Positions 3,129 through 15,674 of a DNA stretch of 53,022 nt are shown here, in pieces; the first letter of the stretch is position 1; the number at the start of each line of letters is the position of its first letter. The translations under genes and the position numbers were made by a program. Source of the stretch: Myxococcales bacterium (GTDB taxonomy: Bacteria > Myxococcota > B64-G9); the NCBI GenBank assembly GCA_012798435.1, contig JAAZNF010000097.1:1-53022 (forward strand). Direction: 5' to 3'. The notes below the pieces were generated by a model. It searched no databases and had not been told where the DNA came from. It was given only the letters and a program-made list of their open reading frames with translations.

Positions 3129-3169
3129 AAAAAACCGGTGAATCACCCTTCATCCGGGCAATCCACCGG
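3129..3169 (-). terminator. Intrinsic terminator in the propeller-gene leader (riboswitch expression platform)
   Basis: On the minus strand a 14-bp stem (arms 3169-3156 and 3148-3135, three G-U pairs) closes a 7-base loop and is followed at once by six T (3134-3129). It lies 34 bases before the chosen start codon and upstream of the ribosome binding site, so it can only attenuate this gene. Its 5' arm contains 3165-3157, a perfect 9-base complement of aptamer positions 3251-3243. Confidence 0.85.
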
Positions 3170-3183
3170 GAGCGTACCGCTTC

Positions 3184-3263
3184 GCCATCTTCGGCAGCCG
3201 GTCTACCCTTTCGGGCTCACGGCTTTGCGCTCCAGGAAAACCTGGATTGCCTTTTCGGATGGC
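3184..3263 (-). promoter_or_regulatory. Cyclic-di-GMP-I (GEMM-I) type riboswitch aptamer
   Basis: On the minus strand the order is GCCATC (3263-3258), GGCAATCC, a CCAGG-TTTT-CCTGG hairpin, the hallmark GCGCAAAGCC, a GCCC-GAAA-GGGT hairpin, then CCGGCTGCCGAAG and GATGGC (3189-3184). The outer GCCATC/GATGGC and the GGCA/TGCC pairs close the element as in GEMM-I. The GGCAA...CGCAAAGCC...CCGG..GCCGA order is the family signature. The P2 loop is TTTT rather than the common GAAA tetraloop. It starts about 10 bases after the predicted transcription start and is followed by an intrinsic terminator. Whether it binds c-di-GMP or cGAMP (GEMM-Ib, known in Geobacter) cannot be settled by eye. Confidence 0.85.
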
Positions 3264-3280
3264 CTCCGTTTTCCAGCTTC

Positions 3281-3309
3281 AGAATACGGAAAAGAAGCGA
3301 GCCTGTCAA
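3281..3309 (-). promoter_or_regulatory. Sigma70-type promoter driving the riboswitch and propeller gene
   Basis: On the minus strand TTGACA (3309-3304) and TATTCT (3286-3281) are separated by exactly 17 bases. The predicted start near 3274 lies just upstream of the aptamer, which supports both calls. Confidence 0.8.
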
Positions 3310-3379: not shown

Positions 3380-3409
3380 TTGACAGGCGGAATGGTTTTG
3401 GCCGACAAT
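3380..3409 (+). promoter_or_regulatory. Predicted sigma70-type promoter of the VWA lipoprotein gene
   Basis: TTGACA (3380-3385), an 18-base spacer, then GACAAT (3404-3409). The leader to ATG 3437 would be about 20 bases and contains GGAGGGAGG. It is divergent from the riboswitch promoter about 70 bases away. Confidence 0.6.
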
Positions 3410-3436: not shown

Positions 3437-4933
3437 ATGGTGAGAACGCATTCTCTTCTGCTAACCTTCTGCACGACCTTCCTGCTCGTTGCCGGCTGCC
3501 AGGACTACGCCTACGAGGAGCAGCCGAACACCGTGGTGCGGGAGAAGCGCAAGACGTTCCACACCAGCGTGGCCCAGAAAGCCAACATCCTGTTCGTGGT
3601 CGACAACTCGGGCTCGATGGCCGGCGAGCAGGCCCAGCTCGGTCAGAGCTTCAGCGCCTTCCGGCAGGTCCTCGACGAGAAGTTCGGCCCCGGGAAATAC
3701 AAGATCGCGGTGATCACCACGGGGATGGAATCCGATGGTTGCCCCGCCTGCAGCACGTTGTCGCAGAAGCGCTCCTGCATCAACGACACGGGCGAAAACG
3801 GCCGGTTCCAGGATCTCAAGGGATGTATCTGGGAGGCCAATGCCTGTCAGCCCTCGACAGGCTCGGACCAACCTTCGTTTGATTTCCAGCCAGACCAGAC
3901 TTGTCGCGTGGTCACCTCCACCAACCAGAATTGCTTTTATGACTCATCCTCGTACCGCGGCACGGTAATGGTGGGCGTCACCGGCTGCGGATACGAGCGC
4001 GGCCTGGCGCCGATGCGAAAGGCGCTGGAGGGCAATCTGCTCGACAGTTACAACTCCGGGTTCCTGGACAGCGACGCCGTCCTGGCGGTGGCCATCATCT
4101 CCGACGAGGATGATTGTGGAGAGGTTGGCGACGTCGCAGAAAAGACGAGAACCCAGGCCAACATCTGCTACTACGCCTCCAAGGGCGTGGGTCCCATGGG
4201 CGAGAATGTCTACCCCGGCACGGACAAACCATACGCTCTTACCCCAGTGAAGGACTACTACGACTTTCTGATGGCCAAGAAAGGCAACAAAGAGGGTATG
4301 GTGAAGTTCGCAGCCATCGTGGGTGTGAAAGACAAGAATAATCCGGACACGACAGTCATAGAGTATGAGAGCAGCACCGACACCTCGCAAGCCAAGCCTG
4401 CCTGCACAACACCTCCACCCTGCTCCAGCGCGGCGGGATACTGCCACGCCTTTCCCGGCACCCGTTACATCGAGCTGTACAAGATGTTCGCCCAGACCGG
4501 CAACGGCTTCCTCGATACCATCTGCCAGAATGATTTCCACGAAACCCTGCTCCAGATCGCCACCTTCATCGCCTGCCCGGCGTTCTTCGGCCTGGACCAG
4601 CAGATCCTCGACCCGGCGCTGGCCAACCTCATCTTGAACGGCAATACCGTGCCCAAGTACACCTGCACCTCCAAGGAACCCATCATCGAGTGCCTGGGCC
4701 TCGACGACACCACCACTTGCCCGTCCGGAACGACGTGCGTCGAAACCTGGAAATACTGTCCGTACGGAACTCATGCACAGAAGAATGCCAACGGCCCGGT
4801 CACCTGTGAGTCCGGGTTGCCTTCCGGGCCCGACTACCCCGGCGGGACGTTGGCCTTCGCGAATCACTACGACCCCTGCACCTTCATCACCCAGGGGGCG
4901 ATCGACATCGAGCTGGTGTACGTTCCAGAGTGA
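3437..4933 (+). CDS. Lipoprotein with von Willebrand factor A-like domain
   Basis: Predicted lipoprotein of 498 aa. The signal peptide ends in the lipobox LVAGC with Cys21. A VWA-like fold starts near residue 50 with ILFVVDNSGSM; D56, S58 and S60 form the metal-ion-dependent adhesion (MIDAS) motif. A later IISDEDDC segment fits the fourth strand of such domains. Many Cys residues (for example CPACS, CSSAAGYC, CTSKEP) suggest disulfides outside the cytoplasm. I chose ATG 3437 because GGAGGGAGG lies 6 bases upstream and gives a clean signal peptide; an in-frame extension to 3380 would cover the promoter. Proteins of this layout are common in Myxococcota. Binding partner unknown. Confidence 0.85.
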   Translation: MVRTHSLLLTFCTTFLLVAGCQDYAYEEQPNTVVREKRKTFHTSVAQKANILFVVDNSGSMAGEQAQLGQSFSAFRQVLDEKFGPGKYKIAVITTGMESDGCPACSTLSQKRSCINDTGENGRFQDLKGCIWEANACQPSTGSDQPSFDFQPDQTCRVVTSTNQNCFYDSSSYRGTVMVGVTGCGYERGLAPMRKALEGNLLDSYNSGFLDSDAVLAVAIISDEDDCGEVGDVAEKTRTQANICYYASKGVGPMGENVYPGTDKPYALTPVKDYYDFLMAKKGNKEGMVKFAAIVGVKDKNNPDTTVIEYESSTDTSQAKPACTTPPPCSSAAGYCHAFPGTRYIELYKMFAQTGNGFLDTICQNDFHETLLQIATFIACPAFFGLDQQILDPALANLILNGNTVPKYTCTSKEPIIECLGLDDTTTCPSGTTCVETWKYCPYGTHAQKNANGPVTCESGLPSGPDYPGGTLAFANHYDPCTFITQGAIDIELVYVPE

Positions 4934-14795: not shown

Positions 14796-15674
14796 TCAAC
14801 CGTCGACCCGGTTTCGTCCCGCTTCTTTGGCCGCGTACAGGTGGCGGTCGGCCAGCTTGATGAAGTCCAGCCCCTCGGAGACCGAGTCGTCCAGCGTGGC
14901 CACCCCCACCGAGACGGTCACCGGGATGGCGGTGCCCTCGAAGTTGAAGACGTGCTCCTGCACCATTTTGCGCACCTTCTCGCCCATCATCATGGCCCGG
15001 GCGTGGTCGATCTCCGGCAGGATGATGGCGAACTCCTCGCCCCCGTAGCGCGCCAGGAAGTCCTCGCGCCGGATGTGAACCTTGACCACCTCCGACATGC
15101 CCTTGAGGATGTAGTCGCCGGCCAGGTGACCGAAGCTGTCGTTGATGTTTTTGAAGTGATCGATGTCGTAGATCATCAGGCTGAGGTCGCGCCCGTAGCG
15201 CCGGCTGCGGGAGATCTCCCGCTCCAGCGTCTCCATGAAGTAGCGCTTGTTGTACACCTGGGTGAGCCCGTCCACGGTGGTGAGGCGGTAGATCTCCTCG
15301 TGGTAGGCGTTCTCGATGTTGCCCCCCGAGAGGAACTTGAAGATGGTCCGGCCGATCTTGATGAAGTCCCCGTCGCGCAGGATCTTCTCCTCCACCGGCT
15401 CGTCGTTGACGTAGGTGCCGTTGGTGCTGCCCAGGTCGCGGATGAGGACCTTCTGCCCGTCGTTGGTGATCTTGGCGTGGCTGCGGGAAACCGACTCCTG
15501 GTCCACCTGGATGTCGGACTTGGCCGAGCGGCCGATGATGACCGTGGCCTTGTCCAGGCTGTACTTCTTGCCCAGGTCGAGGCCGTAGATCATCACCAGG
15601 CAGGCGGGGGTGCCGGCCGGGCGCTGTCCGATCTTGGAGATGACCGTGATGACCGTCTTGCTCTTGGGCGGCAC
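14796..15674 (-). CDS. FHA-domain diguanylate cyclase
   Basis: Makes cyclic di-GMP from two GTP, 292 aa. Residues 25-115 are a forkhead-associated domain with [17 protein letters not shown] and STNGTYVND, which bind phosphothreonine. Residues 130-290 are a GGDEF domain with active-site GGEEF (211-215) and metal-ligand Asp in MIYDIDHFK. The inhibitory I-site RxxD (R202-D205) lies exactly five residues before GGEEF, so product inhibition is expected. The start is GTG 15674 with GGGAGGAG 3 bases upstream. The FHA domain suggests control by Ser/Thr kinase signalling, common in Myxococcota. A c-di-GMP-type riboswitch lies 11 kb away. Confidence 0.95.

Follow-up and report, generated by a model that had tools for sequence, protein, structure and literature searches.

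A c-di-GMP-I-class riboswitch with a predicted OFF design ahead of an exported propeller gene in Myxococcota

On the minus strand of a 53,022-nucleotide stretch of Myxococcales DNA (hereafter the window), the leader of a single gene combines an aptamer-like element with a terminator, which raises the question of what ligand the leader senses, in which direction it switches the gene and how far the arrangement is kept in relatives. Myxobacteria serve as model organisms for the control of development and motility by c-di-GMP. The Myxococcus xanthus c-di-GMP papers searched mention riboswitches solely as one general kind of effector. Our preferred reading, which we consider probable, is that the leader of this propeller gene contains a c-di-GMP-I riboswitch, most likely acting as a co-transcriptional OFF switch.

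A preliminary description of the locus, made from the letters alone, had listed a promoter, a GEMM-I aptamer, a 14-bp terminator with six T and a ribosome binding site, and all of these parts were located in that order on the minus strand, at exactly the coordinates given, leading into the gene for an exported propeller of 481 amino acids (3095-1650; Table 1). The promoter (TTGACA-17-TATTCT) matches the consensus at 10 of 12 positions, with about 0.1 promoter-like sites expected per 500-base region, and comparable -35 and -10 boxes, matching at 9 to 11 of 12 positions, lie upstream of the aptamer in relatives G001, G006, G007 and G008. Two features on the plus strand point away from the riboswitch. 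One is a divergent promoter-like site (3380-3409), which matches at 10 of 12 positions; the other is a lipoprotein-like gene (3440-4933) whose product carries a DNSGSM motif of von Willebrand type.

Table 1 Features of the riboswitch leader and its gene, in window coordinates
Feature	Position	Strand	Details
Sigma-70-type promoter	3309-3281	minus	-35 TTGACA 3309-3304; 17-base spacer; -10 TATTCT 3286-3281
c-di-GMP-I (GEMM-I) class aptamer	3264-3184	minus	RF01051 34.0 bits; RF03167 31.6 bits; eight-homologue alignment
Aptamer helix P1	3263-3258/3189-3184	minus	
Aptamer helix P2	3246-3231	minus	UUUU loop 3240-3237
Aptamer helix P3	about 3224-3196	minus	Loop GAAA
G, taken as equivalent to Vc2 G20	3251	minus	Family alignment; c-di-GMP (G) versus cGAMP (A) discriminator
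A, taken as equivalent to Vc2 A47	3226	minus	Alignment; c-di-GMP-I-GGC consensus has G
C, taken as equivalent to Vc2 C92	3194	minus	Alignment; Watson-Crick partner of the ligand
Aptamer 5' strand of antiterminator	3261-3243	minus	CATCCG 3261-3256 (P1 5' strand) and GGCAATCCA 3251-3243
Antiterminator 3' strand	3165-3151	minus	TGGATTGCC 3165-3157 and CGGATG 3156-3151; in terminator 5' arm and loop
Intrinsic terminator	3169-3129	minus	14-bp stem: 5' arm 3169-3156, loop 3155-3149 (7 nt), 3' arm 3148-3135
Terminator T6 tail	3134-3129	minus	TTTTTTATTT, 3' of the stem
Ribosome binding site, plausible	3111-3105	minus	GGAAAGG, ahead of the start codon
Start codon of propeller gene	3095	minus	ATG
Exported protein, 481 aa	1650-3095	minus	Signal peptide; propeller ~24-321; C-terminal beta-sandwich ~336-437; tail of Cys, hydrophobic stretch and RRRS

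An Rfam scan of the whole window at gathering thresholds returned no match at the aptamer or anywhere else. In a whole-genome search the aptamer scored 34.0 bits against RF01051 (c-di-GMP-I; E = 1.3e-4), and the match to this covariance model that had been proposed as a check was therefore narrowly missed at Rfam's own cut-off of 35 bits. Copies above this cut-off are found in genomes of the same family (L006-L009, L015 and L022). When eight aptamers of the family were aligned, 94.3% of cells were paired over 24 pairs, with compensatory changes on both sides in 8 of the 24; none of 500 shuffles matched this pairing, and controls in which the structure was slid along the alignment reached at most 45.8%. 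The predicted P1, P2 and P3 three-helix junction of GEMM-I is supported by this covariation. We also built a lineage covariance model (R1) from the same eight aptamers, under which the window aptamer scores 93.2 bits, a value that is not independent because the window sequence was in the model; searching with R1 found a single aptamer copy in the window's genome. The contact positions G20, A47 and C92 in Vc2 numbering, which we take to be 3251, 3226 and 3194, are of the c-di-GMP type. Together, Rfam scores, family covariation and these contacts uphold the proposed GEMM-I, c-di-GMP-type class.

RF03167 (c-di-GMP-I-GGC) was the top Rfam family in a permissive local scan (31.6 bits, E = 1.6e-5); we dropped this identity on the A at position 47 and on a score far below the cut-off of 59 bits. 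The other weak Rfam matches at the locus (BASRCI408, Cupriavidus-1, M23, GHRLOS and sR60) fall far below their cut-offs and were taken as chance.

The predicted sign of the switch depends on a second pairing, which the preliminary description had given as a perfect nine-base complement between 3251-3243 and 3165-3157. This complement is exact, and it is part of a larger pairing in which CATCCG and CGGATG (3261-3256 / 3156-3151) extend it to 15 bp (duplex-energy shuffle test, p = 0.0125); when the downstream region was shuffled 500 times with its dinucleotide content kept, no shuffle gave as much pairing between aptamer and platform. When the RNA stops short of the terminator 3' arm, folding energies favour the antiterminator (-55.3 kcal/mol) over the P1-folded form (-47.5 kcal/mol). 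Adding the pre-terminator tail lowers the probability of P1 from 0.92, its value in the isolated aptamer, to 0.0000; a drop is frequent with shuffled tails too, and 3.4% of them give a value as low as that of the window or lower. By transcript length, equilibrium folding passes from the aptamer (92-106 nt) to the antiterminator (120-136 nt) and then to the terminator (from 138 nt). Folding of the pre-terminator RNA and the length scan thus bear out the claim that aptamer and antiterminator are mutually exclusive. In the minimum free energy structure of the full-length leader, aptamer and terminator coexist without overlap, and at equilibrium the terminator forms with or without ligand. All of these are equilibrium energies, and because the terminator wins at equilibrium, switching must be kinetic.

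In the window, the predicted antiterminator shares sequence with the aptamer on one side and with the terminator on the other, and these two can themselves coexist, which is the arrangement of an OFF riboswitch of the Cd1 type. The Cd1 aptamer and terminator can be present together, and each is in competition with an antiterminator whose stability is only transient (PMC9262584). We infer the same OFF sign for the window, together with kinetic control. After about 92-106 nt have been transcribed, the aptamer could fold and bind c-di-GMP. Without ligand, TGGATTGCC and CGGATG of the terminator 5' arm and loop would, once transcribed, invade the aptamer by pairing with GGCAATCCA and CATCCG in its 5' strand, and this antiterminator pairing would block the terminator, so that polymerase reads into the propeller gene. 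With ligand bound, the 5' strand would be locked in P1 and P2, the terminator would form and the gene would be off. The propeller would then be produced at low c-di-GMP.

The same aptamer could also act with the opposite sign, ligand turning the gene on, for example through an effect on the P1 3' strand or through slowed formation of the terminator. Many terminator-based GEMM-I switches are ON switches, among them the Geobacter cGAMP (PMC6456294) and pilM (PMC9262584) examples, and the terminator is the default at equilibrium. The pilM terminator, however, consumes a strand of the aptamer itself, whereas aptamer and terminator coexist without overlap in the window, where it is the antiterminator that consumes the aptamer 5' strand, as it also does in G007, G008 and G003c. 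We therefore regard an ON switch as unlikely.

Recurrence of the pairing was assessed in nine family leaders including that of the window, each compared between aptamer 5' strand and expression platform in a duplex test with 2,000 shuffles. Pairing was significant in the window (p = 0.0125), G008 (0.006), G007 (0.0035) and G003c (0.0015) and was not significant in G001, G006, G003a, G003b and G005; the Fisher combined p value over the nine leaders was 1.1e-5 (7.8e-5 without the window). Antiterminator registers and sequences differ between leaders, G007 pairing CATCCGAAAAG with CTTTTCGGATG and G003c pairing GCCATCCGA with TCGGGTGGC. For G008 (L007) the duplex test was significant, but a test based on folding of the pre-terminator RNA was not. 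Among 19 more distant loci, nine had p < 0.05, many of them close relatives of one another rather than independent events, and ten did not reach this level. The clearest distant case is L148 (p = 0.001), in which the downstream CGGGATTGCCCTTG matches CAAGGGCAATCCC; terminators are less clear in the more distant family f8. The ligand-induced OFF logic predicted in the preliminary description is supported by folding and recurs in some relatives, while in others tested the pairing did not reach significance. Support for the predicted OFF logic is thus good in the window and in part of its relatives, but it does not extend to every one of them.

As for the ligand, nucleotide 20 sets the choice between c-di-GMP and cGAMP, and an A20G change gave a cGAMP switch of Geobacter selectivity for c-di-GMP (PMC6456294). 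GEMM-Ib (cGAMP) riboswitches carry A20; the window has G at this position, as do all other aligned copies in its family (f1). A c-di-GMP signal should be available in the window's genome because 18 GGDEF domains are encoded there. From these sequence features, c-di-GMP is most likely the ligand of the window aptamer rather than cGAMP, which we set aside as an identity on the basis of G20 and kept as a rival.

In that rival, the ligand would be 3',3'-cGAMP, or both dinucleotides, and not c-di-GMP alone. The GGDEF motif is readable in 12 of the 18 domains, and one of these (L078, G000:C21:9114-9578) has a Hypr-like GHxxGS motif in the form GHLCGS. A Hypr-type serine marks cGAMP-making enzymes (PMC6456294), and because of this one protein cGAMP may also be present in the cell. 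A cGAMP-type A at position 20 (GAGC), where the window and most other aptamers have G, is found, too, in aptamers ahead of the propeller in family f31 (L106, about 2900-2994 of its record, G189; L108, about 2579-2665, G188), and A20 aptamers precede another gene in G149 (L102 and L105). Against this reading stand the G20 of the window and of the other aligned f1 copies and the effect of the A20G change noted above (PMC6456294), and we consider it improbable. Within the window, the minus strand at 14796-15674, about 12 kb from the riboswitch, encodes a GGDEF protein whose N-terminal part looks FHA-like by eye.

One structural feature of GEMM-I, a GNRA tetraloop on P2 that docks into P3, differs in the window: most relatives have GNRA at this loop, and the window has UUUU, which the preliminary description had not noted. 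In Cd1, mutation of the P2 tetraloop to U abolished c-di-GMP binding (PMC9262584), and given the UUUU loop and this comparable, binding-incompetent mutant, our confidence in tight c-di-GMP binding by the window aptamer is lower. Some close relatives also lack a GNRA loop in P2 while keeping the rest of the motif, so in this lineage GNRA is no absolute hallmark. By analogy with Cd1, the window aptamer may bind with poor affinity, or it may rely on a different tertiary contact; a swapped contact through the GAAA loop of P3 is speculation. That the leader has decayed into a fixed, constitutively terminated attenuator that binds no ligand, as the lost GNRA loop, the Cd1 mutant and the RF01051 score under the cut-off might suggest, is very unlikely given that the contact positions, all three helices and the antiterminator complement are intact, that the helices covary across relatives, that several relatives with non-GNRA loops retain the remaining motif and that P3 could, speculatively, offer the swapped contact.

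The gene behind the leader encodes what the preliminary description had called an exported seven-blade propeller, and this assignment is supported by a TIGR04275 match with seven repeats (256.3 bits against a cut-off of 85, E = 6.1e-78) and by an AlphaFold model (mean pLDDT 79.8, only four sequences). In the model, 28 strands at residues 24-321 form seven blades of four, followed by a beta-sandwich and a disordered tail, and the top structural matches are TolB and other propellers; the propeller also matches PF07676 (PD40). The claim of a sorting-like tail is supported in part: its shape of Cys, hydrophobic stretch and Arg residues also occurs in each of three orthologues compared (G001, G007 and G008), and relatives such as L122 have a MYXO-CTERM tail (TIGR03382, 17.8 bits versus a cut-off of 15.85). 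The tail of the window protein itself falls under the cut-off of every sorting model, with no MYXO-CTERM match, and orthologue G001 scores 7.8 bits versus a MYXO-CTERM cut-off of 20. Export of the propeller to the surface is likely from these sequence signals; for the part suggested for it in attachment or motility no evidence was found, and that suggestion is conjecture.

Within family f1, five genomes have a full propeller orthologue (profile E below 1e-230 in all five), and the aptamer lies ahead of it in all five; the named records are JAKLGA010000006 (Myxococcota RA.bin29), JAFDKH010000102, JAFCZJ010000005 and JAFGRB010000480. The window propeller is 52-55% identical to three other aligned f1 orthologues, and a scan of genome contigs found no f1 locus beyond those of the whole-genome search set. 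Across the phylum, 90 of 195 genomes have a propeller match. The R1 model placed an aptamer directly upstream of the propeller homologue at 50 of 72 Myxococcota loci, and the core motif was found there at 52 of the 72. This link holds for all f1 and f31 loci with a strong match and for most of f8, and no aptamer was found upstream of the propeller at the f13, f15, f21 and f25 loci among the 72. The Rfam c-di-GMP-I cut-off was passed by 2 of the 20 propeller-locus records scanned.

Aptamers of these lineages also occur ahead of other genes. Other f1 aptamers precede other secreted proteins or lipoproteins. At one of these loci (L015, G002:C280), the family riboswitch lies ahead of a lipoprotein-like protein that resembles, by eye, only the C-terminal beta-sandwich of the propeller; a profile match to residues 335-444, the C-terminal domain, lies on the same contig. 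This resemblance suggests that the beta-sandwich may be a shared module of the regulon. In family f13, closely similar copies of a single c-di-GMP-I aptamer (L010, L016 and L017) precede a gene for a twin-arginine-like exported protein (SRRGFLKAGG), a target other than the propeller. In G149, the two A20-type aptamers lie ahead of genes for related exported proteins in which a Cys lies close to the signal peptide end, again other than the propeller, and the same genome carries a G20-type aptamer (L093).

We searched the literature for links between this riboswitch class and TolB-like propellers or Myxococcus, and the titles, abstracts and passages retrieved contain no description of the pairing. 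The locus is a known riboswitch class in a setting for which no earlier description was found, with a coherent and partly conserved predicted OFF mechanism. New here is the conserved aptamer-propeller link in dozens of Myxococcota genomes, absent from the literature searched. This link, together with an apparent change of ligand type in family f31, judged from nucleotide 20, is what merits follow-up: a riboswitch conserved before one surface propeller in dozens of genomes offers a single, directly testable c-di-GMP output gene, and the G20/A20 difference at the same gene between families offers a natural test of a change in dinucleotide signal. We rate as about as likely as not a broader proposal, that a branch of c-di-GMP-I riboswitches mostly missed by Rfam controls an exported seven-bladed propeller with a sorting tail throughout Myxococcota, using an antiterminator drawn from the aptamer 5' strand, and that, given the A20 of f31, control of this gene there may have passed from c-di-GMP to cGAMP.

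Compared with known systems, the window shares with RF01051 the three-helix architecture, the conserved core and the G20/A47/C92 contacts, and differs in scoring one bit under the curated cut-off and in its P2 loop, which is UUUU instead of GNRA. RF03167 and the window both carry the AAAAGGCAA and GGCUGCCGAAG stretches, whereas the RF03167 consensus has G at position 47 and the window A. The window protein resembles TIGR04275 beta-propeller repeat proteins in its seven propeller repeats, and TolB is its best fold match; unlike TolB, the window protein is without the N-terminal domain and adds the C-terminal beta-sandwich and the Cys-hydrophobic-Arg tail. With the GEMM-Ib cGAMP riboswitches of Geobacter, the window has in common the fold and terminator-based transcriptional control, but those are ON switches with A20 and the window has G20 and a predicted OFF design. 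The transcriptional OFF switch Cd1 of the Clostridioides difficile flagellar operon has a c-di-GMP-I aptamer like that of the window and an OFF arrangement like the one predicted there. Its antiterminator, however, is formed with the 3' strand that stabilises the aptamer (A with T and H) where the window would use the 5' strand, it needs the P2 tetraloop contact where the window has no GNRA loop, and its target is flagella where that of the window is one exported propeller.
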